A DNA stretch of 64,000 nt from Egibacter rhizosphaerae (GTDB taxonomy: Bacteria > Actinomycetota > Nitriliruptoria > Euzebyales > Egibacteraceae): contig NZ_CP036402.1 of assembly GCF_004322855.1 (NCBI RefSeq), positions 3,410,001 through 3,474,000 on the forward strand, given 5' to 3'. The notes under the pieces are model-generated. The model saw nothing but the letters and a program-made list of their open reading frames with translations. It searched no databases and had not been told where the DNA came from. The position numbers were made by a program, and so were the translations under genes. Below are positions 5,892-14,701 of the stretch, in pieces; the first letter of the stretch is position 1, and each line of letters starts with the position of its first letter.

Positions 5892-7025
5892 CTAGGTTCG
5901 CAGGGCGGGATCGCCCCTCGTGGCCTTCTCGGCTCCACCCTTCATGATGGTGATGGAGTTGGTGGGGAGTCGGACCCGAACGGGATCATCCGGCTCGGCG
6001 ATGGGCTCCAGGTCCGGGTCGTACTCGTCGATGACTACTTCCGTTCCGGCCACCTTGACCCAATGGCGCCGGAGAGGCCCGAGGAACTGGCTCCCGATGA
6101 GCGATCCCTGGATCTCGGCTCCCGCAGTCGCGGAGCCGTCGACATCGACGGAGAGCGCCTCCGGTCGGATCACGAGGGCGGTTTCCTCCCCTTCGCTCAC
6201 GTCGCCGCCCGAGATGCGCGCGCCGTCGAACTCGAGTCGCTGATGGTCCGCTAGCTCGACGACGATCTGTCCCTCGGCGAACTTGCGCATCTCGCAAGGG
6301 ATGAAATTGTTCATCCCGATGAAGTCCGCAACGAAAGGGGTCTCGGGCTCGTAGTAGAGCTCGTGGGGCGTGCCGGACTGCTCGATTCGTCCGTCGAACA
6401 TCACCGCGACGGCGTCACCCATTGCCAAGGCCTCTTCTTGGTCGTGAGTGACATAGAGCGTGGTGATGCCGAGCCGCTGCTGCAACGCGCGGAGATCGGT
6501 CCGCAGCCGCGCTCTGAGCTTCGCGTCGAGGTTGGAGAGGGGCTCGTCCATGAGCAACACCTCGGGCTCGGTCACGACCGATCGTGCGAGGGCCGTGCGC
6601 TGCTGCTGTCCCCCGGACAGCTGCCGCGGATAGCGCTTGGCCAGGCCCTCCAGCCCCATGAGCTCCAGGGTCTCCCGGGTGCGCCGCTCGACCGTCTCCT
6701 TGTCGATCTTCGCGGTACGCAGGCCGTACGCCACGTTGTCCTCGACGGTCATGTGCGGGAAGAGGGCATAGTCCTGGAACACGATGGACGTTGGCCGCCG
6801 GTGCGCCGATCGTCCGATCTGTGAGACCCCGCCGATGAGGACGTCCCCGTCGTCGGGATCGACGAATCCGGCGATCATCCGCAGGGTCGTGGTCTTCCCG
6901 CACCCACTCGGGCCGAGTAGGCACGTGAAACTGCCACGCTCGATCGCCATGTCGACGTGGTCGACGGCCACATCCTCCCCGAACGTCTTCCGGAGGTTCA
7001 CCAGCTGCAAGTGTGCGTCGGCCAT
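5892..7025 (-). CDS. ABC transporter ATPase, FbpC/AfuC type (3-gene importer)
   Basis: This is the nucleotide-binding subunit (377 residues) of an importer of the FbpABC/AfuABC class. It has Walker A 'GPSGCGKTT', signature 'LSGGQQQR', Walker B 'VLLMDEP' and the switch His in 'YVTHDQEEA', followed by a C-terminal TOBE-like regulatory domain. ATG 7025 is chosen because it lies 10 bp after the permease stop with TGAGGAC upstream; the frame stays open further 5' but reads through the permease gene. It is the last gene of the operon. Databases often call this family ferric-iron or spermidine/putrescine ATPase. Here the neighbours are two phosphatases and an inositol-dehydrogenase-like enzyme, which favours an organophosphate substrate; that choice is inference. 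Confidence 0.9.
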   Translation of the reverse strand: MADAHLQLVNLRKTFGEDVAVDHVDMAIERGSFTCLLGPSGCGKTTTLRMIAGFVDPDDGDVLIGGVSQIGRSAHRRPTSIVFQDYALFPHMTVEDNVAYGLRTAKIDKETVERRTRETLELMGLEGLAKRYPRQLSGGQQQRTALARSVVTEPEVLLMDEPLSNLDAKLRARLRTDLRALQQRLGITTLYVTHDQEEALAMGDAVAVMFDGRIEQSGTPHELYYEPETPFVADFIGMNNFIPCEMRKFAEGQIVVELADHQRLEFDGARISGGDVSEGEETALVIRPEALSVDVDGSATAGAEIQGSLIGSQFLGPLRRHWVKVAGTEVVIDEYDPDLEPIAEPDDPVRVRLPTNSITIMKGGAEKATRGDPALRT

Positions 7026-7035
7026 GGGCGAGTCC

Positions 7036-8691
7036 TCACAGTTCGAAGAGGCGGACGCGACCGCGGGTCGCCACGCGGAAGACGGCGAGCGCCGCAAAGG
7101 TGATGAGCATCAGCGCCGAGGACATGGCGGCGGCCTCGCCCCAGTAACCGTGCTCCGCCAGGCCCATGATGGACACCGAAGCCAGCTGGTTGCCGGGACT
7201 GGTCAGAAAGATCACGGCGCTGAGGGTGTTGATCGACTTCACGAACGCGTAGACGAACGCGGCCGTGAACGCGCCTTTCATGAGCGGGAGCATGATCGTT
7301 CGGAACGTGCGTAAGCCGCTGGCCCCGAGGTCGGCCGCGCTCTCGTCGATCGAGGAGCCGATCTGATGCAAGGCGGACACCCCGCTGCGATAACCGACGG
7401 GAAGGTTCCTGATGATCATCGACATGATGATGATGAAGGCGGTCCCGGTGAGCACGAGGGGCTCAGTGTTGAACGTGATCACGTAGGCGATCCCCAGCAT
7501 TGTTCCGGGGAGCGCGGCGGGCAGTACGCAAAGGGCATCGAGGGCCCCGCGACCAGGTACCCATCGTCGGTGGAGGAAGAAGCCGGCCGCCGCGGCGAAG
7601 AACGCGCAGACGAACGCGGCAATCGCGGCGTACACGGCGCTGTTCTGCAGATCGCCGGTGCGGAACAGCACGTAGTCGAGGTGGTCGGCCGTCAGTGACC
7701 AGTCGATGCCCCACGTGGTGGTGATGGCGCCCGCGAAGATGCTCGCGTAGGTGATCAGCAGGAAGGCGGTCACCACGCCCATGAACACGGCGAGCCCCCA
7801 GCGCACGGCGGGGGGCGTGGGGATCGGCGACAGCGAGCTCTCCTTGCCCGTGACCGTGACGTAGGAGCGGTGACTCAGGATGCGGCGCTGGATCAGGAAG
7901 AAGAGCAGCGCCGGCAGCAGGAGCACCGCGGAGAGCACGGCCGCGACACCGAGGTCGAATCTCCCGGTGACCTGCATGAAGGCCTCAACGGCCAGCACAC
8001 GGTAGTCACCACCGACGAGCAGTGGGTTGCCGAAGTCCGCCAGCACGAACATCGCGACGAGGAGCGCGGCGCTGAGTAACCCGGGCATCGCCAGCGGCAG
8101 CGTGACCGTGCGGATGACGCCGAACCAGCTGCGGCCCAGATCCCGCGCCGCCCACTCCAGCGCCGGGCTCTGGTTGCGCAACACCGACGCGAGCGAGAGG
8201 ACGGCGACCGGGTACAGGGAGAACGTCTGCACGATCCAGATGCCGCTGAGGCCGTACGCGTCGACCTCGAGCCCGAGCAATTCGTAGGTGAGCAGGCCAC
8301 GGCGACCGAACAGCAACAGCAAGGCCAGGCCCAGCGCGAAGGGGGGCGATACCAGCGGCAGTAGCGAGATGAACCGAAAGAACCGCTTCCCGGGTATGTC
8401 GTCGCGGGTGAGTGCGAACGCGAAGAGGAAACCGGTAACCGTCGCGGTGACGGTGGAGAGCACGACCATTACCGCCGTGTTGCGAGTGATGCCCCGAAGG
8501 CGCTCGCTCGTGAGGTAGTCCAGCCAATCCCCACCGCGAGGCTCGAACAGCAGGGCCACCGTCGGCCACAGGACGAAGATCAACAGGACGATCGCCATGA
8601 CCGCCGCGACCACGTAGGACGAAGGGTCCTGCTGGACCTGTCGCAACAAGCCCGAGGTGGCGGATCTCCGCGGAGCGGTCTGCGTGGCCAT
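7036..8691 (-). CDS. ABC transporter permease, fused double-domain FbpB/AfuB type
   Basis: This 551-residue integral membrane protein contains two BPD-type permease halves, as in FbpB/AfuB, with about twelve helices. Each half carries an EAA-like cytoplasmic loop: 'EWAARDLGRSWFGVIRTVTLPLAMPG' (quoted in part) in the first and 'DESAADLGASGLRTFRTIMLP' (in part) in the second. It forms the membrane channel for the solute-binding protein encoded upstream and the ATPase encoded 10 bp downstream. A gap of 82 bp separates it from the binding-protein gene. The first 25 residues are a short basic cytoplasmic leader. The fused permease architecture is typical of iron, thiamine, putrescine, phosphonate and sugar-phosphate importers, so it does not fix the substrate by itself. 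Confidence 0.9.
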   Translation of the reverse strand: MATQTAPRRSATSGLLRQVQQDPSSYVVAAVMAIVLLIFVLWPTVALLFEPRGGDWLDYLTSERLRGITRNTAVMVVLSTVTATVTGFLFAFALTRDDIPGKRFFRFISLLPLVSPPFALGLALLLLFGRRGLLTYELLGLEVDAYGLSGIWIVQTFSLYPVAVLSLASVLRNQSPALEWAARDLGRSWFGVIRTVTLPLAMPGLLSAALLVAMFVLADFGNPLLVGGDYRVLAVEAFMQVTGRFDLGVAAVLSAVLLLPALLFFLIQRRILSHRSYVTVTGKESSLSPIPTPPAVRWGLAVFMGVVTAFLLITYASIFAGAITTTWGIDWSLTADHLDYVLFRTGDLQNSAVYAAIAAFVCAFFAAAAGFFLHRRWVPGRGALDALCVLPAALPGTMLGIAYVITFNTEPLVLTGTAFIIIMSMIIRNLPVGYRSGVSALHQIGSSIDESAADLGASGLRTFRTIMLPLMKGAFTAAFVYAFVKSINTLSAVIFLTSPGNQLASVSIMGLAEHGYWGEAAAMSSALMLITFAALAVFRVATRGRVRLFEL

Positions 8692-8773: not shown

Positions 8774-9889
8774 TCAACCACCGACCCGCTCCTCCCACTC
8801 GTCGAGGAGATGGTCGCGTTGTTCGCCGGCCCATTCCGCGTCGAAGCCGTCGACGAGGTCGAGCTCGTCGACGGGATCCGCGGCTCCCGGGAGCTCAACA
8901 TCATCCCGGAGCGGCACCCGCAGGCTCAGATCGGTGTGCAACTGGTTGGCCTCCGGGCCAAGCATCCAGTCGACGAACACCTCGGCGGCCTCCGGGTTCG
9001 GGCCGTCGTCGATGATCGACACGGCTCCGATCTCGAAGCCGGTATCCTCCGGGTACACCAGCTCCAGTGGGAAGCCGGCCTGGATAGGCGTCAGGATGTC
9101 GTGGCCGAAGGTGACCGCGAGCGTGAACTCGCCGGCGCCCGCCATGCGAGCTGGGGCCGCACCGCTCGACGTGTACTGGCCCACCGTCCGGTCGAACTCC
9201 TCGTACCAGTCGAACGCCTCGTCCTCACCCAGTCGGAATACCTGTGTGACGAGCATGTTGTACGACGTGCCGGACGACGCGGGTTCGGCGATGGCGAGGG
9301 CTCCCTCGTACTGCTCGTCGAGAAGGTCGTCCCACGTCTCGGGATAGGGATCGTCCCCGAACTCGTCCTCCCAGCGCTCCGTGTTGATCGCGACACCGAG
9401 CGCGCCGATGTAGAAGCCGTGCCAGTAGTGCTCTGAGTGGTAATGGTCCTCGTCATAGTCCTCGACCGCGACCGGAGACTCGTAGGCCCGAAGGAAGTCG
9501 GGGACGAGCGGCTCGTGGGTCTCGCTCGGGCCACCGAGGAACACGTCGCCGTCAGGGTTGTCCCCCTCCGCCTCGATGCGTGCGGTCATCTCGCCGGCAC
9601 TGGCTCGGATCGTCTCCGTTGGGACCCCCGTCGCATCCTCGAATGCGGAGGCGATCCGGTCGATCTCCTCCTCGTGGAGCGCGCCATAGATCACGAGTTC
9701 GGCGTCGTCAGGGACGTCAGTGAGTTCCTCCTCCTCGACTTCCTCGACATCGTCGTCCACCGCCTCCTCGTCCCCGTCGGGATCGTCCACCGGATCAGCG
9801 CCCGGGTCGGCGGTCTCTTCCGTCTCGCAGGCGGCAGCGAACAACGCGACCACCAGCAGGGACGCGAGAATCACCAAACGTCGGCTCAT
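8774..9889 (-). CDS. Solute-binding lipoprotein, AfuA/FbpA (COG1840) type
   Basis: This 371-residue substrate-binding lipoprotein has a signal peptide 'MSRRLVILASLLVVALFAAAC' (21 residues shown less one in practice: lipobox A-A-A-C), then an acidic linker rich in Asp/Glu and a family-1 binding fold starting near 'ELVIYGALHEEEIDRIASAF' (in part). Start ATG 9889 is preferred because AGGAGG lies six bases upstream; ATG 9895 is too close to it. The paired-tyrosine iron ligands typical of FbpA near the C-terminal half are not evident; the corresponding stretch reads 'QYTSSGAAPARMAG', a small-residue/Arg loop that would suit an anionic ligand. Members of this family bind Fe(III), thiamine, 2-aminoethylphosphonate or hexose phosphates. 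With the neighbouring phosphatases I infer a phosphorylated organic ligand. Confidence 0.85.
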   Translation of the reverse strand: MSRRLVILASLLVVALFAAACETEETADPGADPVDDPDGDEEAVDDDVEEVEEEELTDVPDDAELVIYGALHEEEIDRIASAFEDATGVPTETIRASAGEMTARIEAEGDNPDGDVFLGGPSETHEPLVPDFLRAYESPVAVEDYDEDHYHSEHYWHGFYIGALGVAINTERWEDEFGDDPYPETWDDLLDEQYEGALAIAEPASSGTSYNMLVTQVFRLGEDEAFDWYEEFDRTVGQYTSSGAAPARMAGAGEFTLAVTFGHDILTPIQAGFPLELVYPEDTGFEIGAVSIIDDGPNPEAAEVFVDWMLGPEANQLHTDLSLRVPLRDDVELPGAADPVDELDLVDGFDAEWAGEQRDHLLDEWEERVGG

Positions 9890-9927: not shown

Positions 9928-10725
9928 TCAACCAGCCGTCGCACGAGCCCTCAGGCAGGTGAGGAGCTCCTCGTGGATCCGTGCGTTCGTGGCGACAGCC
10001 TCGCCGTCGGCGGGATGCCACGGCGTTCCGTCACGAGCGGTGACTCGACCGCCGGCCTCCTCAACGAGCACGGCCCCGGCGGCCCAATCCCACGGGCCGG
10101 CGCTCAGCTCCCAGTAGCCGTCTGTCGTTCCGGTCGCAACGGCAGCCATGTCCAAGCCCGCGCAGCCGAGTCGTCGCATACTTCGGACCAACGGCACCAC
10201 ACGGACGAACGGCTCGAGGTTGTTGCGCTCCGGGTCCGACATGTCCGGGGGGAAACCGGTACTCAAGCAGGCGCGCTCCAAGCTGGACGTGGACGCAACG
10301 CGGAGACGCCGGCGACCGCGCCATGCCCCCCGGCCCCGCTCCGCGGCATAGATCCGGCGTCGGGGCACGTCCGCGATGACCCCGAGGGCCACCCGGGTGC
10401 CGTCCCAGAACGCGAGGTTGACGGCGTAGGCGGGCAGTCCGCGGAAGTAGTTGGTGGTGCCGTCGATGGGATCGACCAGCCAGGCGGGCGTGGTCCAGTC
10501 GTGCTCGCTGGGACCGACGGTTTCCTCGCCGATGATGGCCTCGCCCGGAAAGGCGGTGCTGAGCTGTCGACGGATGAGTTCCTCAACGGCGCGGTCGGTC
10601 GCGGTCTGCAGGTCAGCAACGTTCCGCTTCAACCGGGGCAGGCGGGGGGTGTCCGCCCGACGGATCGCGTCGGCGGCGCTGCGCGCGATGGAGACGGCGG
10701 TGCGGGTTCGACCGAGCAGCGTCAT
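9928..10725 (-). CDS. Inositol-monophosphatase-family phosphatase
   Basis: This 265-residue cytosolic phosphatase belongs to the Mg2+-dependent IMPase/FBPase/CysQ superfamily. Visible motifs are 'GEETVG' (first metal Glu), the core signature 'WLVDPIDGTTNYFRGLP' and the late motif 'GPWDWAAGAVLVEEAGG', which together form the lithium-sensitive metal site. It should remove phosphate from inositol phosphate, a sugar phosphate or a nucleotide bisphosphate; the family does not distinguish these. ATG 10725 overlaps the HAD-phosphatase stop by 4 bp (ATGA), showing translational coupling, and it lies 38 bp before the binding-protein gene. Co-transcription with an importer suggests it acts on imported material. 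An in-frame extension to 10800 is unconserved Arg-rich sequence and was rejected. Confidence 0.9.
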   Translation of the reverse strand: MTLLGRTRTAVSIARSAADAIRRADTPRLPRLKRNVADLQTATDRAVEELIRRQLSTAFPGEAIIGEETVGPSEHDWTTPAWLVDPIDGTTNYFRGLPAYAVNLAFWDGTRVALGVIADVPRRRIYAAERGRGAWRGRRRLRVASTSSLERACLSTGFPPDMSDPERNNLEPFVRVVPLVRSMRRLGCAGLDMAAVATGTTDGYWELSAGPWDWAAGAVLVEEAGGRVTARDGTPWHPADGEAVATNARIHEELLTCLRARATAG

Positions 10726-11630
10726 GAAGCCCCCTGCTCGTGCGCGCTCGCTCGACCTCCGCGCCCCCCGGACGCGCCCCGCTCGTCGTCGAGAATCCAC
10801 GTGACGATCGTTCGGAGTGACCCGTTCGGCGGATCGGGTAAGACGGCCAAGGCGAGGTCTCGAAGACGCTCGTCTGCGCTCTGGACCGCGAGTGGCAGTC
10901 CGGCGTGCTCGAGCATGGGGCCATCGTTGGGGTTGTCACCGGCAACGGCCACGTGCGCGGGCTCGTATCCCTGCAGCTCGCAAAGGCGCAGCAGGGCCGC
11001 TCCCTTGTCGACATCAGGGGGGAGCACTTCCACATAGCCAGGTTCGGAGCGCGTGGTGGTCAATCGTGGCACTGCCTCGCTGAGGCGCGCCTCGAGGGTG
11101 GACACCTCGGAGGGGTCCGTGATCAGCAGCCACTTGATGGCCGGGCGCCCACTCGTGGCGCTCAGGTCGGGGATCAGCTCCGCGGGCGTGCCGTCGCGTT
11201 CCAGCAGTTCCCGAACCGGGCTCTCGCGCCGTCGGACGAGCACACCGTCGTCGCTGTACACGACCGGCTCGGCGGGGAGATCGCCGCTCGAGAGGAGCCT
11301 GATGAGGGCCTCGTGCTCGTCCGCAGGGAGGCGAGCTTCCCAGTGAACCTCACCGGTGGACAGATCGACCAGCCGGGCGCCGTTGTAGAGGATCGCGGGT
11401 GGGGTGGTCGGCAGTTGCGCGGCGATCCGGGCGGCGGACGTCTCGTTGCGACCGGTGGCGAGGTGGAGTGCCCGGTCACTCGCCAGGAGCTCTCCGGCGG
11501 CTGCGCGGTCGTCCACCGAGACCTCGGTCGAGGTGTCGACCAGCGTGCCGTCGATGTCGATGACAACGGCGGCCAGGTCGTGCTGGAGGCGACCCTTATC
11601 CGCGTCCACGGTCGCGGAACGCTCCGGCAT
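10722..11630 (-). CDS. Cof-type HAD-superfamily phosphatase
   Basis: This is a 302-residue haloacid-dehalogenase hydrolase of the Cof/YidA (subclass IIB) type. Motif I is 'DIDGTLVD', motif II is in 'LATGRN', motif III Lys lies in 'VDKGAALLRL' and motif IV is 'GDNPNDGPML'. Enzymes of this class dephosphorylate sugar phosphates and similar small metabolites in the cytoplasm. ATG 11630 is used; AAGGAG sits 11 bases upstream, and the GTG at 11654 precedes that site. It is the first gene of the phosphatase-transporter operon, directly downstream of a promoter-like TTGACA overlapped by a putative GntR operator (11692-11708). The C-terminal 20 residues are Gly/Arg-rich and overlap the next gene's start. 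Confidence 0.88.
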   Translation of the reverse strand: MPERSATVDADKGRLQHDLAAVVIDIDGTLVDTSTEVSVDDRAAAGELLASDRALHLATGRNETSAARIAAQLPTTPPAILYNGARLVDLSTGEVHWEARLPADEHEALIRLLSSGDLPAEPVVYSDDGVLVRRRESPVRELLERDGTPAELIPDLSATSGRPAIKWLLITDPSEVSTLEARLSEAVPRLTTTRSEPGYVEVLPPDVDKGAALLRLCELQGYEPAHVAVAGDNPNDGPMLEHAGLPLAVQSADERLRDLALAVLPDPPNGSLRTIVTWILDDERGASGGRGGRASAHEQGAS

Positions 11631-11691
11631 GCCCGACCACACTCCTTCACCCACACCTCAAGGATGGTCGGGGAGGCTAGGACGGCGGGCG

Positions 11692-11708
11692 TTCTAATGT
11701 CAATACTT
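11692..11708 (-). promoter_or_regulatory. Putative GntR operator over the -35 of the phosphatase/ABC operon
   Basis: The 19 bases 11691-11709 match the palindrome at 13594-13612 at 15 of 19 positions, with the core TAATGTCA identical. On the minus strand the site overlaps a perfect -35 TTGACA (11703-11698); a weak -10 TAGCCT follows after 18 bases. This geometry would let the adjacent UTRA-GntR protein repress the HAD-IMPase-ABC operon. It is an AT-rich island in an otherwise GC-rich spacer. Confidence 0.62.
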
Positions 11709-11775
11709 TTATTTGTAAGCACAACATAGATGCGCTCGTCCCAATCGTCGTGCGAGCGGGCTTCGGTGAGGGGAT

Positions 11776-12774
11776 TCACGCCTCCCTGTCGGCGACGAGC
11801 GCTCGAGTCCCGTCTTGCCAGGATCGCTCCGCCGCGACCGCCACCTGCAGGGCGGCCAGCGAAGCTTCGGCCGGTGTGGGCGGCGCGTCTCCTCGCGCGA
11901 GGGCGTCGAGGAACGCGTGCGTCTCGAGCTCGAACGCGGTGGCGAAGCGGTCCAAGAACCCCTCGAAGCGCGGATGCGAGTGGTGTTCGGCTCCCGGATC
12001 GAGGGGTTTGGGGGCGACCGCGGTGGCGTTGCCCGCACCCAGCGACGCGCCGGACCCGAGCGCTTCGAGCCGCACCTCGTAGCCGGCCGGGTTGTGACGC
12101 GACCCGGTAACCAGCACCGGCAATCCCGAATCGGTGGTGAGGCGGAGCGCGGTAACGTCCACGTCCCCGTGCCGGGCGTACCGCTCGTGTCCCCGCACGG
12201 TGCCCACCGCGTCGACTTCGACGACTTCCTCGCCGGTGAGCCATCGCACGAGGTCGAAGTCGTGCACGTGCATATCGCGAAACATGCTGCCGCTGCTGGC
12301 GATGTAGTGCTCGTCGCCCGGTTCCGCATCGTGGGCCGCGATTCGCAAGTGATAGAGGCGACCGAGGGTGCCCTCGGTGACGGCGCGTCGGACCGCTCGC
12401 ATACCGGGATCGAAGCGCCGTTGGAAGCCGACGTGTACCGGGATGCCGGTCTGCTCGGCCGCGGATACGAGTTCACGACTCTCTGGTAGGGACTCCGAGA
12501 TGGGCTTCTCGCACAGGATCGGCACCCCGTGGGAGATGGCTTGCCGTATCAACTCCGGATGTGCTGCGGTGGCGGTGGCGACGATCGCGACGTCGGGCGC
12601 ATTCGAGAACGCATCCTCAATATGGACGGCGCGCCCCCCGCTTCGGTTGGCGACCTGCTGAGCTCTGTCGACGTCCCGGCCGGCGATCAGCAGGTCGCTC
12701 ACGTCGGGGTGGGAGCCCCCTGTCAGCGCCCGTTGCCCTGCCATTCGACCCGTGCCCAGGACCACCAGCCGCAA
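11776..12774 (-). CDS. Gfo/Idh/MocA-family dehydrogenase, inositol-dehydrogenase-like
   Basis: This 332-residue NAD(P)-dependent oxidoreductase has an N-terminal Rossmann domain ('VVLGTGRMAGQRAL') and the family-defining E-K-P motif in 'ILCEKPISES'. The catalytic His/Asp region reads 'MFRDMHVHDFDLVRWLTG', which is the pattern seen in myo- and scyllo-inositol dehydrogenases (IolG/IolX). It should oxidise a ring or polyol hydroxyl in the cytoplasm. It starts 2 bp after the GntR regulator stop, so the two are co-transcribed and probably autoregulated together. With the neighbouring inositol-monophosphatase-family enzyme it suggests a phosphate-removal then oxidation sequence. Other sugars or amino-sugars are also possible substrates for this family. 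Confidence 0.88.
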   Translation of the reverse strand: MRLVVLGTGRMAGQRALTGGSHPDVSDLLIAGRDVDRAQQVANRSGGRAVHIEDAFSNAPDVAIVATATAAHPELIRQAISHGVPILCEKPISESLPESRELVSAAEQTGIPVHVGFQRRFDPGMRAVRRAVTEGTLGRLYHLRIAAHDAEPGDEHYIASSGSMFRDMHVHDFDLVRWLTGEEVVEVDAVGTVRGHERYARHGDVDVTALRLTTDSGLPVLVTGSRHNPAGYEVRLEALGSGASLGAGNATAVAPKPLDPGAEHHSHPRFEGFLDRFATAFELETHAFLDALARGDAPPTPAEASLAALQVAVAAERSWQDGTRALVADREA

Positions 12775-12776
12775 TG

Positions 12777-13529
12777 TCAGCGCTCCATGAGGGTCATCTC
12801 GACCGAGTAGGAATGTGCTGGATACAGCAGGTGGGCGTACTCAATCGGGGTTCCCGCCGCGTCGTAGCTCGTCCGAACGACCTGCACCAACGCCGCACCC
12901 TGCTCCACCTGCAGGTGCCGGCTCTGCTCGGGGTCGGCGCTTGTCGCGCCGATGCGCTGGTGGGCCCCGTAGAGGCGGATCCCCTGTTGGCCGAGCAGGT
13001 GGTAGAGGCTGCGGTCCTGAAGCGCTGACCGACTCAGCGTCAAGCCTTCGGCTCGGACCGTGTTGCGCATGAGCGCGATGGGCTCCTCGTCGGCGAACCG
13101 TAGCCGGCGCAGAACGTACGTCTCGCTCGTGGCAGTGAGCTGCAGGGCCCCGCGCGCTTCCTCGGGACACGGTTGGGTGCTGACCTCGAGCACTTCCGTG
13201 CGGGGTGTCCTGCCGGCCTCGATCAGGTCGTCGTGCAAGCTGGTGAGTGCCAAGGGCCTGGTGATGGGCATCGCCGCGACAACGGTGCCGTAACCGCGGC
13301 GGCGGACCAGGAGTCCTTTGTCGACGAGCACCGTGAGCGCGGCACGGATCGTTGGACGGCTGACCCCCAACCGTTCAGCGAGCTCGACCTCGCCCTCCAG
13401 CTTCTCGCCGAGTCCGATCGCCCCGCTCGCGATCATCTCCTCGATGCATGTCGCCGCTTGGTGGTACAGGGGCACGGGGCTCGCGTGGTCGAGTCTCACG
13501 TCCCGAAGTGCTTCTGTCAGGGCCGCCAC
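12777..13529 (-). CDS. GntR-family regulator with UTRA ligand domain (HutC subfamily)
   Basis: This 250-residue repressor has an N-terminal winged helix (residues about 18-85, 'ELAERLGVSRPTIRAALTVL') and a UTRA small-molecule-binding domain (about 100-245). UTRA-GntR proteins sense a pathway metabolite, often a phosphorylated sugar. A GTG start at 13529 is reported, though AGGGAG lies almost against it, so the true start may be slightly internal. A perfect 8+1+8 palindrome lies 66 bp upstream and a degenerate copy lies at the second operon's promoter. I infer that it controls both its own operon and the phosphatase-transporter operon. The gene after it (dehydrogenase) begins 2 bp past its stop. 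Confidence 0.9.
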   Translation of the reverse strand: MAALTEALRDVRLDHASPVPLYHQAATCIEEMIASGAIGLGEKLEGEVELAERLGVSRPTIRAALTVLVDKGLLVRRRGYGTVVAAMPITRPLALTSLHDDLIEAGRTPRTEVLEVSTQPCPEEARGALQLTATSETYVLRRLRFADEEPIALMRNTVRAEGLTLSRSALQDRSLYHLLGQQGIRLYGAHQRIGATSADPEQSRHLQVEQGAALVQVVRTSYDAAGTPIEYAHLLYPAHSYSVEMTLMER

Positions 13530-13594
13530 CTCCCTGTGGTGTTCGGCGCGAGGGCCAGTCTCGCGGTGCGCGCGCGAGTAACAGAACGACTATG

Positions 13595-13611
13595 ATGTAA
13601 TGTCATTACAT
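13595..13611. promoter_or_regulatory. Putative autoregulatory operator, perfect 17-bp palindrome
   Basis: ATGTAATG-T-CATTACAT is a perfect inverted repeat with a single central base, in a 30-bp AT-rich patch upstream of the minus-strand GntR gene. It has the size and symmetry of GntR/HutC operators. A degenerate copy sits at 11692-11708. Confidence 0.72.
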
Positions 13612-13886
13612 TAATCTGAAACTACCTTCGGGATCGAGTGGAAGTCAAGGGTGCGTCCCCGGACTCCCGGGTCAGCCGCCCGTCTCGGTCGGCAGCCGCG
13701 TGGAGCCTGATGATCCTCCCGGCGGGCAAGCGTAAGCCCCGACCCCTTCTCCCGAGGTCGGGGCTTCGCCTGACAGGAACCCCCCACCTCGTAGGCGGCC
13801 GGCTCTAGTGGTTCCATCGGCCCCTGAGCGGCCGGAGTAAGCACTTCGCCCGGTCCGTTCGCCGATTGCAGGCGTATCGTGTCGGC
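13612..13886. other. Intergenic spacer with one hairpin, no gene seen
   Basis: Between the GntR regulator (minus) and the HEPN gene (plus) there are about 357 bp in all. They contain the palindromic operator at 13595-13611 and the hairpin at 13734-13766. No open frame with coding character, tRNA or conserved RNA was recognised. The T-rich/AT-rich left edge is the only low-GC stretch. Confidence 0.6.
13734..13766. terminator. Strong hairpin, 11-bp perfect stem
   Basis: AAGCCCCGACC pairs perfectly with GGTCGGGGCTT around an 11-base loop. There is no clear U-tract on either side, so it may be a weak or Rho-assisted terminator, or a relic of a transcript end. It separates the divergently oriented regulator and HEPN-MNT genes. 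Confidence 0.5.
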
Positions 13887-14327
13887 ATGTTGGACGAGCA
13901 CGACCTCACACGGTGGATCGCCACGGCCCGGCACCAGCTCGCGGTCGCGGAGCACAGCTCTGGCGGGGGATTCCACGATGCCGCGGTCCTCCACGCCGAA
14001 CAGGCCGCGCAGTGCGCGCTGAAAGCCTTGCGGCACGCCGTGGGGGCGCGTTCAGACTCGCGCAGCCATGCGCTCCCACGGCTCGCCGAGGGTGCTTACG
14101 CGCGTGGGGGACTGCAGCTGGACGCCGGCCTCCGGGAGCGTCTTGGCGAGCTCGCGGCCCAATACCAACCGACCCGCTACCCCGATGCGCTGGCCGACGG
14201 CACTCCAGCGGACCACTACGGTCCCCAAGCAGCGCACCGTGCGATCGAGACGGCGCGACAGACCATCGCGGAGGTCGTCGAGCACGCGGAGCGTCTTCGG
14301 GAGGCCAGCGAGGAAGAGCCATCATGA
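13887..14327 (+). CDS. HEPN-domain protein (partner of MNT nucleotidyltransferase)
   Basis: This 146-residue all-alpha protein matches HEPN domains of the COG2250 type: 'HDAAVLHAEQAAQCALKALRH' (in part) in the first helices, then an R-x5-H stretch (R55 to H61, 'RSDSRSH') at the usual RNase motif position. In active HepT toxins the motif is RX4-6H, often followed by Tyr two residues on; here the residues after His are A-L, so the AMPylated Tyr is absent and nuclease activity is uncertain. ATG 13887 is chosen; a TTG at 13866 would add seven residues. Its stop overlaps the MNT start by 4 bp (ATGA), the classic arrangement of HEPN-MNT toxin-antitoxin pairs. Confidence 0.85.
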   Translation: MLDEHDLTRWIATARHQLAVAEHSSGGGFHDAAVLHAEQAAQCALKALRHAVGARSDSRSHALPRLAEGAYARGGLQLDAGLRERLGELAAQYQPTRYPDALADGTPADHYGPQAAHRAIETARQTIAEVVEHAERLREASEEEPS

Positions 14328-14701
14328 GCCCCAGCCCGGACGAGGTGGTCCGAGCGCGTCGGCGCTCGCAGGAAGAGCGGGTGGAGGTCGCCCGAGCGTT
14401 CGCCGCGAGGTTGCCCGCAGAACTCGACGTGCGGGGCGTCGCGGTCATCGGCTCGACAGCGCGCGGCGACTTCCACGACGAGAGCGACATCGACGTGGTC
14501 GTGCTCGCCGAGCGTTTGCCAGACGGCGCCGCCGCCCGGCAACAGGCGGTGGGCTCCCCGTCGCCCGACGGTGTCGAGGCGGTGGTCTGGACCGTCGAGG
14601 AGTGGATGGCGCGCCAGCGCACCGGCGACCTTGCCGCGACGGAGGCTCAGGACTCCGGCATCTGGGTCCGCAGAAGCCCACCGCGGGAGGCCATGGGCTG
14701 A
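14324..14701 (+). CDS. MNT-type minimal nucleotidyltransferase (HEPN partner)
   Basis: This 125-residue protein has the DNA-polymerase-beta-like nucleotidyltransferase signature G-S-x10-D-x-D (G43, S44, D55, D57) in 'VIGSTARGDFHDESDIDVVV'. In HEPN-MNT (type VII) toxin-antitoxin modules such proteins neutralise the HEPN RNase, in known cases by adding AMP to it; others act as nucleotidyl transferases with unknown targets. It overlaps the HEPN gene by 4 bp and ends 11 bp from the convergent methyltransferase gene. The third acidic residue expected on a later strand may lie in 'GVEAVVWTVEEW'. Activity is likely from the intact motif; the target is inference. Confidence 0.88.
   Translation: MSPSPDEVVRARRRSQEERVEVARAFAARLPAELDVRGVAVIGSTARGDFHDESDIDVVVLAERLPDGAAARQQAVGSPSPDGVEAVVWTVEEWMARQRTGDLAATEAQDSGIWVRRSPPREAMG

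Follow-up and report, generated by a model that had tools for sequence, protein, structure and literature searches.

The GntR-UTRA regulator encoded in the window, i.e., the whole 64-kb stretch of Egibacter rhizosphaerae DNA analyzed here, is proposed to act as a local repressor of the uptake of an inositol phosphate (or a similar polyol phosphate), with a probability for the scheme as a whole of about three in four. Our computational analysis identified the operators, the family to which they belong, a paralogue of the regulator together with its iol cluster, and AfuA-like residues in the pocket of a solute-binding protein. Operators of the regulator's clade are very likely present at both promoters of the cluster, and the local GntR protein probably serves as the main reader of the two. 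The class of the regulator and the operator type are already known; the target operon is unusual. The features of the cluster are listed in Table 1.

Table 1. Predicted genes, operators, and promoter of the cluster (positions in the window)
Feature	Position	Strand	Basis or remark
ABC ATPase with TOBE domain	5892..7097	-	Profile searches
Fused two-domain permease, AfuB-like	7036..8691	-	Profile searches
AfuA-type solute-binding protein	8774..9889	-	His263, Asp264, Glu286 = AfuA His205, Asp206, Glu229
Inositol monophosphatase family protein	9928..10800	-	PF00459, 4.7e-58; GEE, DPIDGT, WDWAAG
Cof-type HAD-IIB phosphatase	10722..11654	-	DIDGT, GDNPND; probable start ATG 11630
Operator 2, ATAAAAGTATTGACATTAGA	11693..11712	minus (as written)	19.6 bits, second distinct site of the window; includes TTGACA 11703-11698
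Operator 2b, TTATTTGTAAGCACAACATA	11709..11728	no strand	Weaker, 14.0 bits, third distinct place of the window
Gfo/Idh/MocA dehydrogenase, IolG-like	11776..12774	-	235.6 bits to TIGR04380, cut-off 355
GntR-UTRA regulator, inositol-repressor clade	12777..13529	-	PF00392 + PF07702
Operator 1, enclosing TAATGTCATTACATTA	13598-13613		6-bp arms TAATGT/ACATTA
Operator 1, core TGTCATTACA (TGT-N4-ACA)	13601..13610	no strand	25.7 bits, best matrix score of the window
Candidate promoter of the GntR-Gfo operon	13619..13648	-	TTGACT (13648-13643), 18-nt spacer, TAGTTT (13624-13619)

A sequence-only reading of this DNA had proposed that one palindromic operator ties two operons to the GntR-UTRA protein. 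The part that stood is that the same operator type is found at both promoters, with binding by the neighbouring GntR-UTRA protein very probable; the register was wrong, however, and two operators probably lie in tandem at the second site. As that reading had described, a perfect 17-base palindrome, ATGTAATGTCATTACAT, lies before the regulator at one of the cluster's two promoters (13595-13611), and alignment of the sites bore out that the 19-mer GTTCTAATGTCAATACTTT at 11691-11709, with TTGACA inside it (minus strand, 11703-11698), is identical to the first site in 15 of 19 places. Both sites precede minus-strand genes, with the matrix site of operator 1 ending 66 nt ahead of the GntR reading frame and the second site falling in the gap that separates the Gfo/Idh gene (ending at 11776) from the HAD phosphatase gene (starting at 11654 or 11630). 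When up to three mismatches were allowed, the 17-mer was found only once in the 4.64-Mb genome; the second site is four mismatches away, so the 17-mer alone cannot prove that the two sites belong together and a better test was needed. Dyads were counted in the upstream regions of 33 homologues, with the window left out and the upstream region of locus L055 removed beforehand as redundant. TGT-N4-ACA ranked first among 39,168 dyads, being present in 25 of the 33 upstreams (1.2 expected) and in 0 of 33 coding controls. The spacing that follows from the axis first assigned to the palindrome, TGT-N9-ACA, was detected in none of the 33 homologous upstreams, and this axis was replaced by the conserved one at 13605.5, which is 2.5 bp away. 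The palindrome is symmetric about the former axis because TAATG is repeated, and operator 1 comprises two overlapping dyads, 5 bp apart, of 25.7 and 18.0 bits.

A symmetrised 20-bp matrix, derived from GntR-homologue upstreams of other genomes with the own genome excluded, was subsequently used to scan the window. The sites at 13596-13615 (25.7 bits) and 11693-11712 (19.6 bits) ranked first and second, followed by the overlapping register 13591-13610 (18.0 bits), 11709-11728 (14.0 bits), and a next match of only 8.7 bits. Among 19.8 million simulated positions, none scored at least 18 bits and 10 scored at least 13.9; a chance palindrome is ruled out by the genome mismatch search, the ranking in the window, and the simulation. 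The left half of operator 2 departs from the motif at one base (AGT instead of TGT), and operator 2b is positioned 16 bp from it in tandem. Sites spaced 8, 11, 16, or 32 bp were found at several other loci, and AAAGTATTGACA variants resembling operator 2 occur as overlapping pairs at L042 9293 and L073 3506. The pattern WWGTNNNNACATTW was detected at three places in the whole genome (both sites of the window plus the operator of the paralogue) and at none in 40 Mb of simulated sequence; as it was picked after both window sites had been seen, the third place is the independent evidence. SCO6974 reportedly binds the consensus WTGTMNKKACAW, which operator 1 fits exactly and with which the TGT-N4-ACA result from the 33 upstreams agrees. 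The number of exact WTGTMNKKACAW matches was rejected as proof, as the seven strand hits at five genome places are no excess over the approximately 4.5 expected by simulation; three of the five places are at the two regulator clusters, another is found where a reductase gene ends, and the last is between two reading frames with no Pfam match. A model built from the sequence of the 20-bp site found only four matches in the window (E up to 10), representing the two sites on both strands, and its whole-genome result was empty and uninformative. Elsewhere in the genome (near 3100746), a pair of CTTGTCAGTACA sites is present in locus L049, at 6743 (14.7 bits) and 6942 (12.8 bits), separated by approximately 200 bp. 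The pair is situated where a disulphide-reductase gene ends and ahead of a short-chain dehydrogenase gene, and may reflect chance or another regulator.

The regulator combines a GntR winged helix with a UTRA domain, and its best solved relative is 2ra5 (2.3e-47), which we take to be SCO6256 of Streptomyces coelicolor. Based on homology and gene neighbours, the protein belongs to the myo-inositol repressor clade. Homologues were collected first from 101 relatives and subsequently from 396 genomes of the phylum. An iol-type gene was found near the regulator at 28 of 33 non-redundant loci (mostly covered for 1.5 kb on each side), a count in which three loci match themselves since the iol queries were taken from them; the earlier statement that the regulator has no described target was thus set aside. 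When 80 named loci were examined, 54 had at least one of the core genes iolB, C, D, and E within 6 kb, and 63 had an upstream site of at least 14 bits, compared with 13 of 400 random pieces of the same loci; this survey is independent of the matrix only in part, as the sets of 33 and 80 homologues partly overlap (the contigs of L088 and L005 have the same length, 79508). Eight of the 17 loci with no upstream 14-bit site have a site of at least 16 bits elsewhere in the locus. SCO6974 and SCO6256 are reportedly GntR repressors of myo-inositol catabolism in S. coelicolor (Yu et al. 2015, 2016). PMC6295645 likewise names SCO6974 as a GntR-type repressor of this pathway. The window regulator is similar to this pair in its GntR-UTRA architecture and in the TGT-N4-ACA at its own promoter, but differs in that its second target operon encodes a sugar-phosphate importer and phosphatases instead of the core iol genes.

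The residues predicted to contact DNA are consistent with this operator. In PMC4333415, Arg38 and Arg48 of NagR are described to read two guanines in each half-site, and the half-sites are separated by six bases. By alignment, the window regulator retains one of these arginines (R58 for Arg48) and has V48 at Arg38; a single guanine in each half-site and a gap of six bases would thus be expected, which is exactly TGT-N4-ACA. The likeness to NagR/DasR (GntR/HutC) extends to the protein family, the six bases between recognised guanines (PMC4333415), and, by alignment, the phosphate-coordinating Arg133, Arg135, Ser165, and Tyr167, which are kept as R142, R144, S174, and Y176. Unlike NagR/DasR, the window protein would read a single guanine per half-site, Met replaces the sugar-contacting Glu145, and His99 replaces Thr90 (by alignment). 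The regulator may start at CTG 13520 rather than GTG 13529; this CTG is 8 nt past GGAGG, has an equally placed counterpart in the paralogue (L033 8752), and aligns with a homologue's ATG (L035 8611).

The paralogue, at genome position 1728748, is 59% identical to the window regulator, with a near-identical helix (SRPTIRAAL in the window, SRPTMRAAL in the paralogue) and wing (RRRGYGTVV and RRRGVGTVV). Its neighbours include iolG-like genes, a fused IolC kinase-aldolase, a KduI/IolB protein, a TPP enzyme, and a xylose-isomerase-like barrel protein, and this iol cluster carries the same TGT-N4-ACA operator type. The window regulator is a relative, and probably a duplicate, of the genome's iol repressor. 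A second operator of the paralogue cluster (L033 15816-15835, genome 1735815-1735834; 22.7 bits, TTGTCAAGACAT) precedes alcohol-dehydrogenase-like and isomerase-like genes. With such similarity in the DNA-reading parts and the same core motif at the paralogue's promoters, the window operators could be read mainly by the paralogue, or by both proteins, in which case the main inositol regulator would have the window cluster as one more target, with only a secondary role for the local GntR protein. However, the paralogue's two sites have TTGTCAAGACAT in common whereas the window sites have AATG or ATTG at the centre, such that the preferences of the two proteins may differ, and regulator genes of this clade usually adjoin their own operator. 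We consider this alternative unlikely and favour the local protein as the main reader.

The genes downstream of the two promoters were examined for function. The dehydrogenase has the EKP and DxHxHDxD motifs and scores under the IolG (TIGR04380) cut-off, while the catalytic motifs of the HAD phosphatase and the inositol-monophosphatase-family enzyme are in place (Table 1); residues of these motifs are counted as catalytic. The window cluster itself contains none of the core iol genes, only the below-cut-off IolG-like gene; the core genes are located with the paralogue. The best match of the binding protein is 4r72 (AfuA; 5.8e-47), and it is also related to 6wce (P5PA). The three residues aligned in Table 1 are sugar determinants of AfuA according to PMC4546632 and PMC8427247, and the Ser-Gly-Thr of the AfuA phosphate site is retained as S206-G207-T208. 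HMMER alignments revealed changes at two AfuA ligand contacts (Ser37 to A98 and Gln269 to R324), which makes glucose 6-phosphate an unlikely ligand; the actual one may also be something other than an inositol phosphate. The importer thus resembles the hexose/heptose-phosphate importer AfuABC (PMC4546632) in its sugar motif and phosphate site and has a fused permease and an ATPase, but differs from it in A98 and R324 and in being clustered with phosphatases and an inositol-type regulator. Judged from these residues, it probably carries a phosphorylated sugar or polyol other than glucose 6-phosphate.

The distribution of the importer was also examined. Its identity to three other actinobacterial relatives is 33-35%, and two of these relatives, both from the class to which the window's organism belongs, lack the His-Asp and Glu motif and have no operator or regulator on their contigs. 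A search of genome contigs with one importer protein detected no relatives, and no importer was found at the 80 other regulator loci (search at 1e-10). Locus L042 has both importer and regulator, but with divergent genes between them and no operator at the importer, and was not counted as support. An inositol-monophosphatase-family gene was found near the regulator at 7 of the 80 loci, with PF00459 confirmed by Pfam in one. These loci (L105, L115, L116, L117, L134, L139, and L144) are from Nonomuraea and Thermocatellispora, and the gene is upstream of and divergent from the regulator, at approximately 0.1-0.2 kb in five and 1 kb in two. An inositol phosphate as the substrate is suggested by (i) the inositol-type regulator; (ii) the IolG-like dehydrogenase; (iii) the phosphatases; and (iv) the monophosphatase-family gene at these seven loci, and is put forward tentatively. 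Equally provisional is the reading that an AfuABC-type importer has been recruited under a duplicated inositol repressor, forming a module dedicated to the import and dephosphorylation of inositol phosphate (or cyclitol phosphate) that feeds the iol pathway. The best NCBIfam names, PhnF for the regulator (TIGR02325) and PhnS2/PhnU2/PhnT2 for the importer, would instead suggest a PhnF-like regulator and the import of 2-aminoethylphosphonate or another phosphonate rather than a polyol phosphate. All of these scores are under the curated cut-offs (118.4 versus 156.8 for the regulator; 164.3 versus 392.75, 278.8 versus 593.25, and 353.8 versus 457.7), the closest solved relatives of the binding protein are AfuA and P5PA, the regulator's clade is found beside iol genes, and the seven cluster proteins scanned include no phosphonate-cleaving enzyme. 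The phosphonate naming was dropped, and a phosphonate substrate is regarded as improbable.

The positioning of the operators relative to the promoters is consistent with repression by the GntR protein. Operator 1 would cover the start site of the candidate GntR-Gfo promoter. Of 34 upstreams, 10 (that of the window and those of 9 of the 33 homologues) have TTGAC 43-44 nt ahead of the dyad centre, and four further homologues have it 36-37 nt ahead, a distance that places the operator over or near the transcription start, as is usual for a repressor; 3 of the 33 homologue upstreams had no site. A consensus promoter scan reported no promoter at the GntR-Gfo candidate or in the transporter-operon region. 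For the phosphatase/transporter operon, we infer a promoter whose −35 element is the TTGACA (11703-11698) contained in the operator, followed by a −10 element that is weak by eye, with no good one seen. That operator 1 reflects real autoregulation while 11691-11709 is a −35 box of chance likeness is likewise regarded as improbable: its four mismatches to the 17-mer, the six bases accounted for by TTGACA, and the imperfect left half-site are set against a 19.6-bit score (none of at least 18 in the simulation), the further site 16 bp away, and the recurrence of the AAAGTATTGACA variant at two other loci.

In the proposed mechanism, the GntR-UTRA protein would bind the TGT-N4-ACA operators as a dimer. 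At operator 1, just downstream of the −10 element and over the start site, it would repress its own gene and that of the IolG-like dehydrogenase; at the tandem pair (11693-11728), over the −35 element of the second operon, it would block RNA polymerase. Binding of a pathway metabolite to the UTRA domain would open both operons. The importer would then take up a phosphorylated polyol or sugar, most likely an inositol phosphate. The phosphatases would free the substrate, the dehydrogenase would oxidise it, and the iol cluster elsewhere in the genome would complete the pathway. An anonymous palindrome is thus turned into a specific prediction of a binding protein, a register, three sites, and an importer that is probably for a phosphorylated polyol. 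Inositol phosphates are widespread in organic phosphorus. If one of these is the substrate, the cluster would provide (i) a path by which inositol phosphates enter inositol catabolism in bacteria; and (ii) a test case for transporters of a class that is often mislabelled as iron or phosphonate importers. A literature search of one open library, with the phrases used there, returned no bacterial inositol-phosphate importer. Adjoining the regulator, on the plus strand at 13866-14701, a HEPN-domain gene is followed by an MNT-like nucleotidyltransferase frame, and this pair is likely of the HEPN/MNT toxin-antitoxin type.
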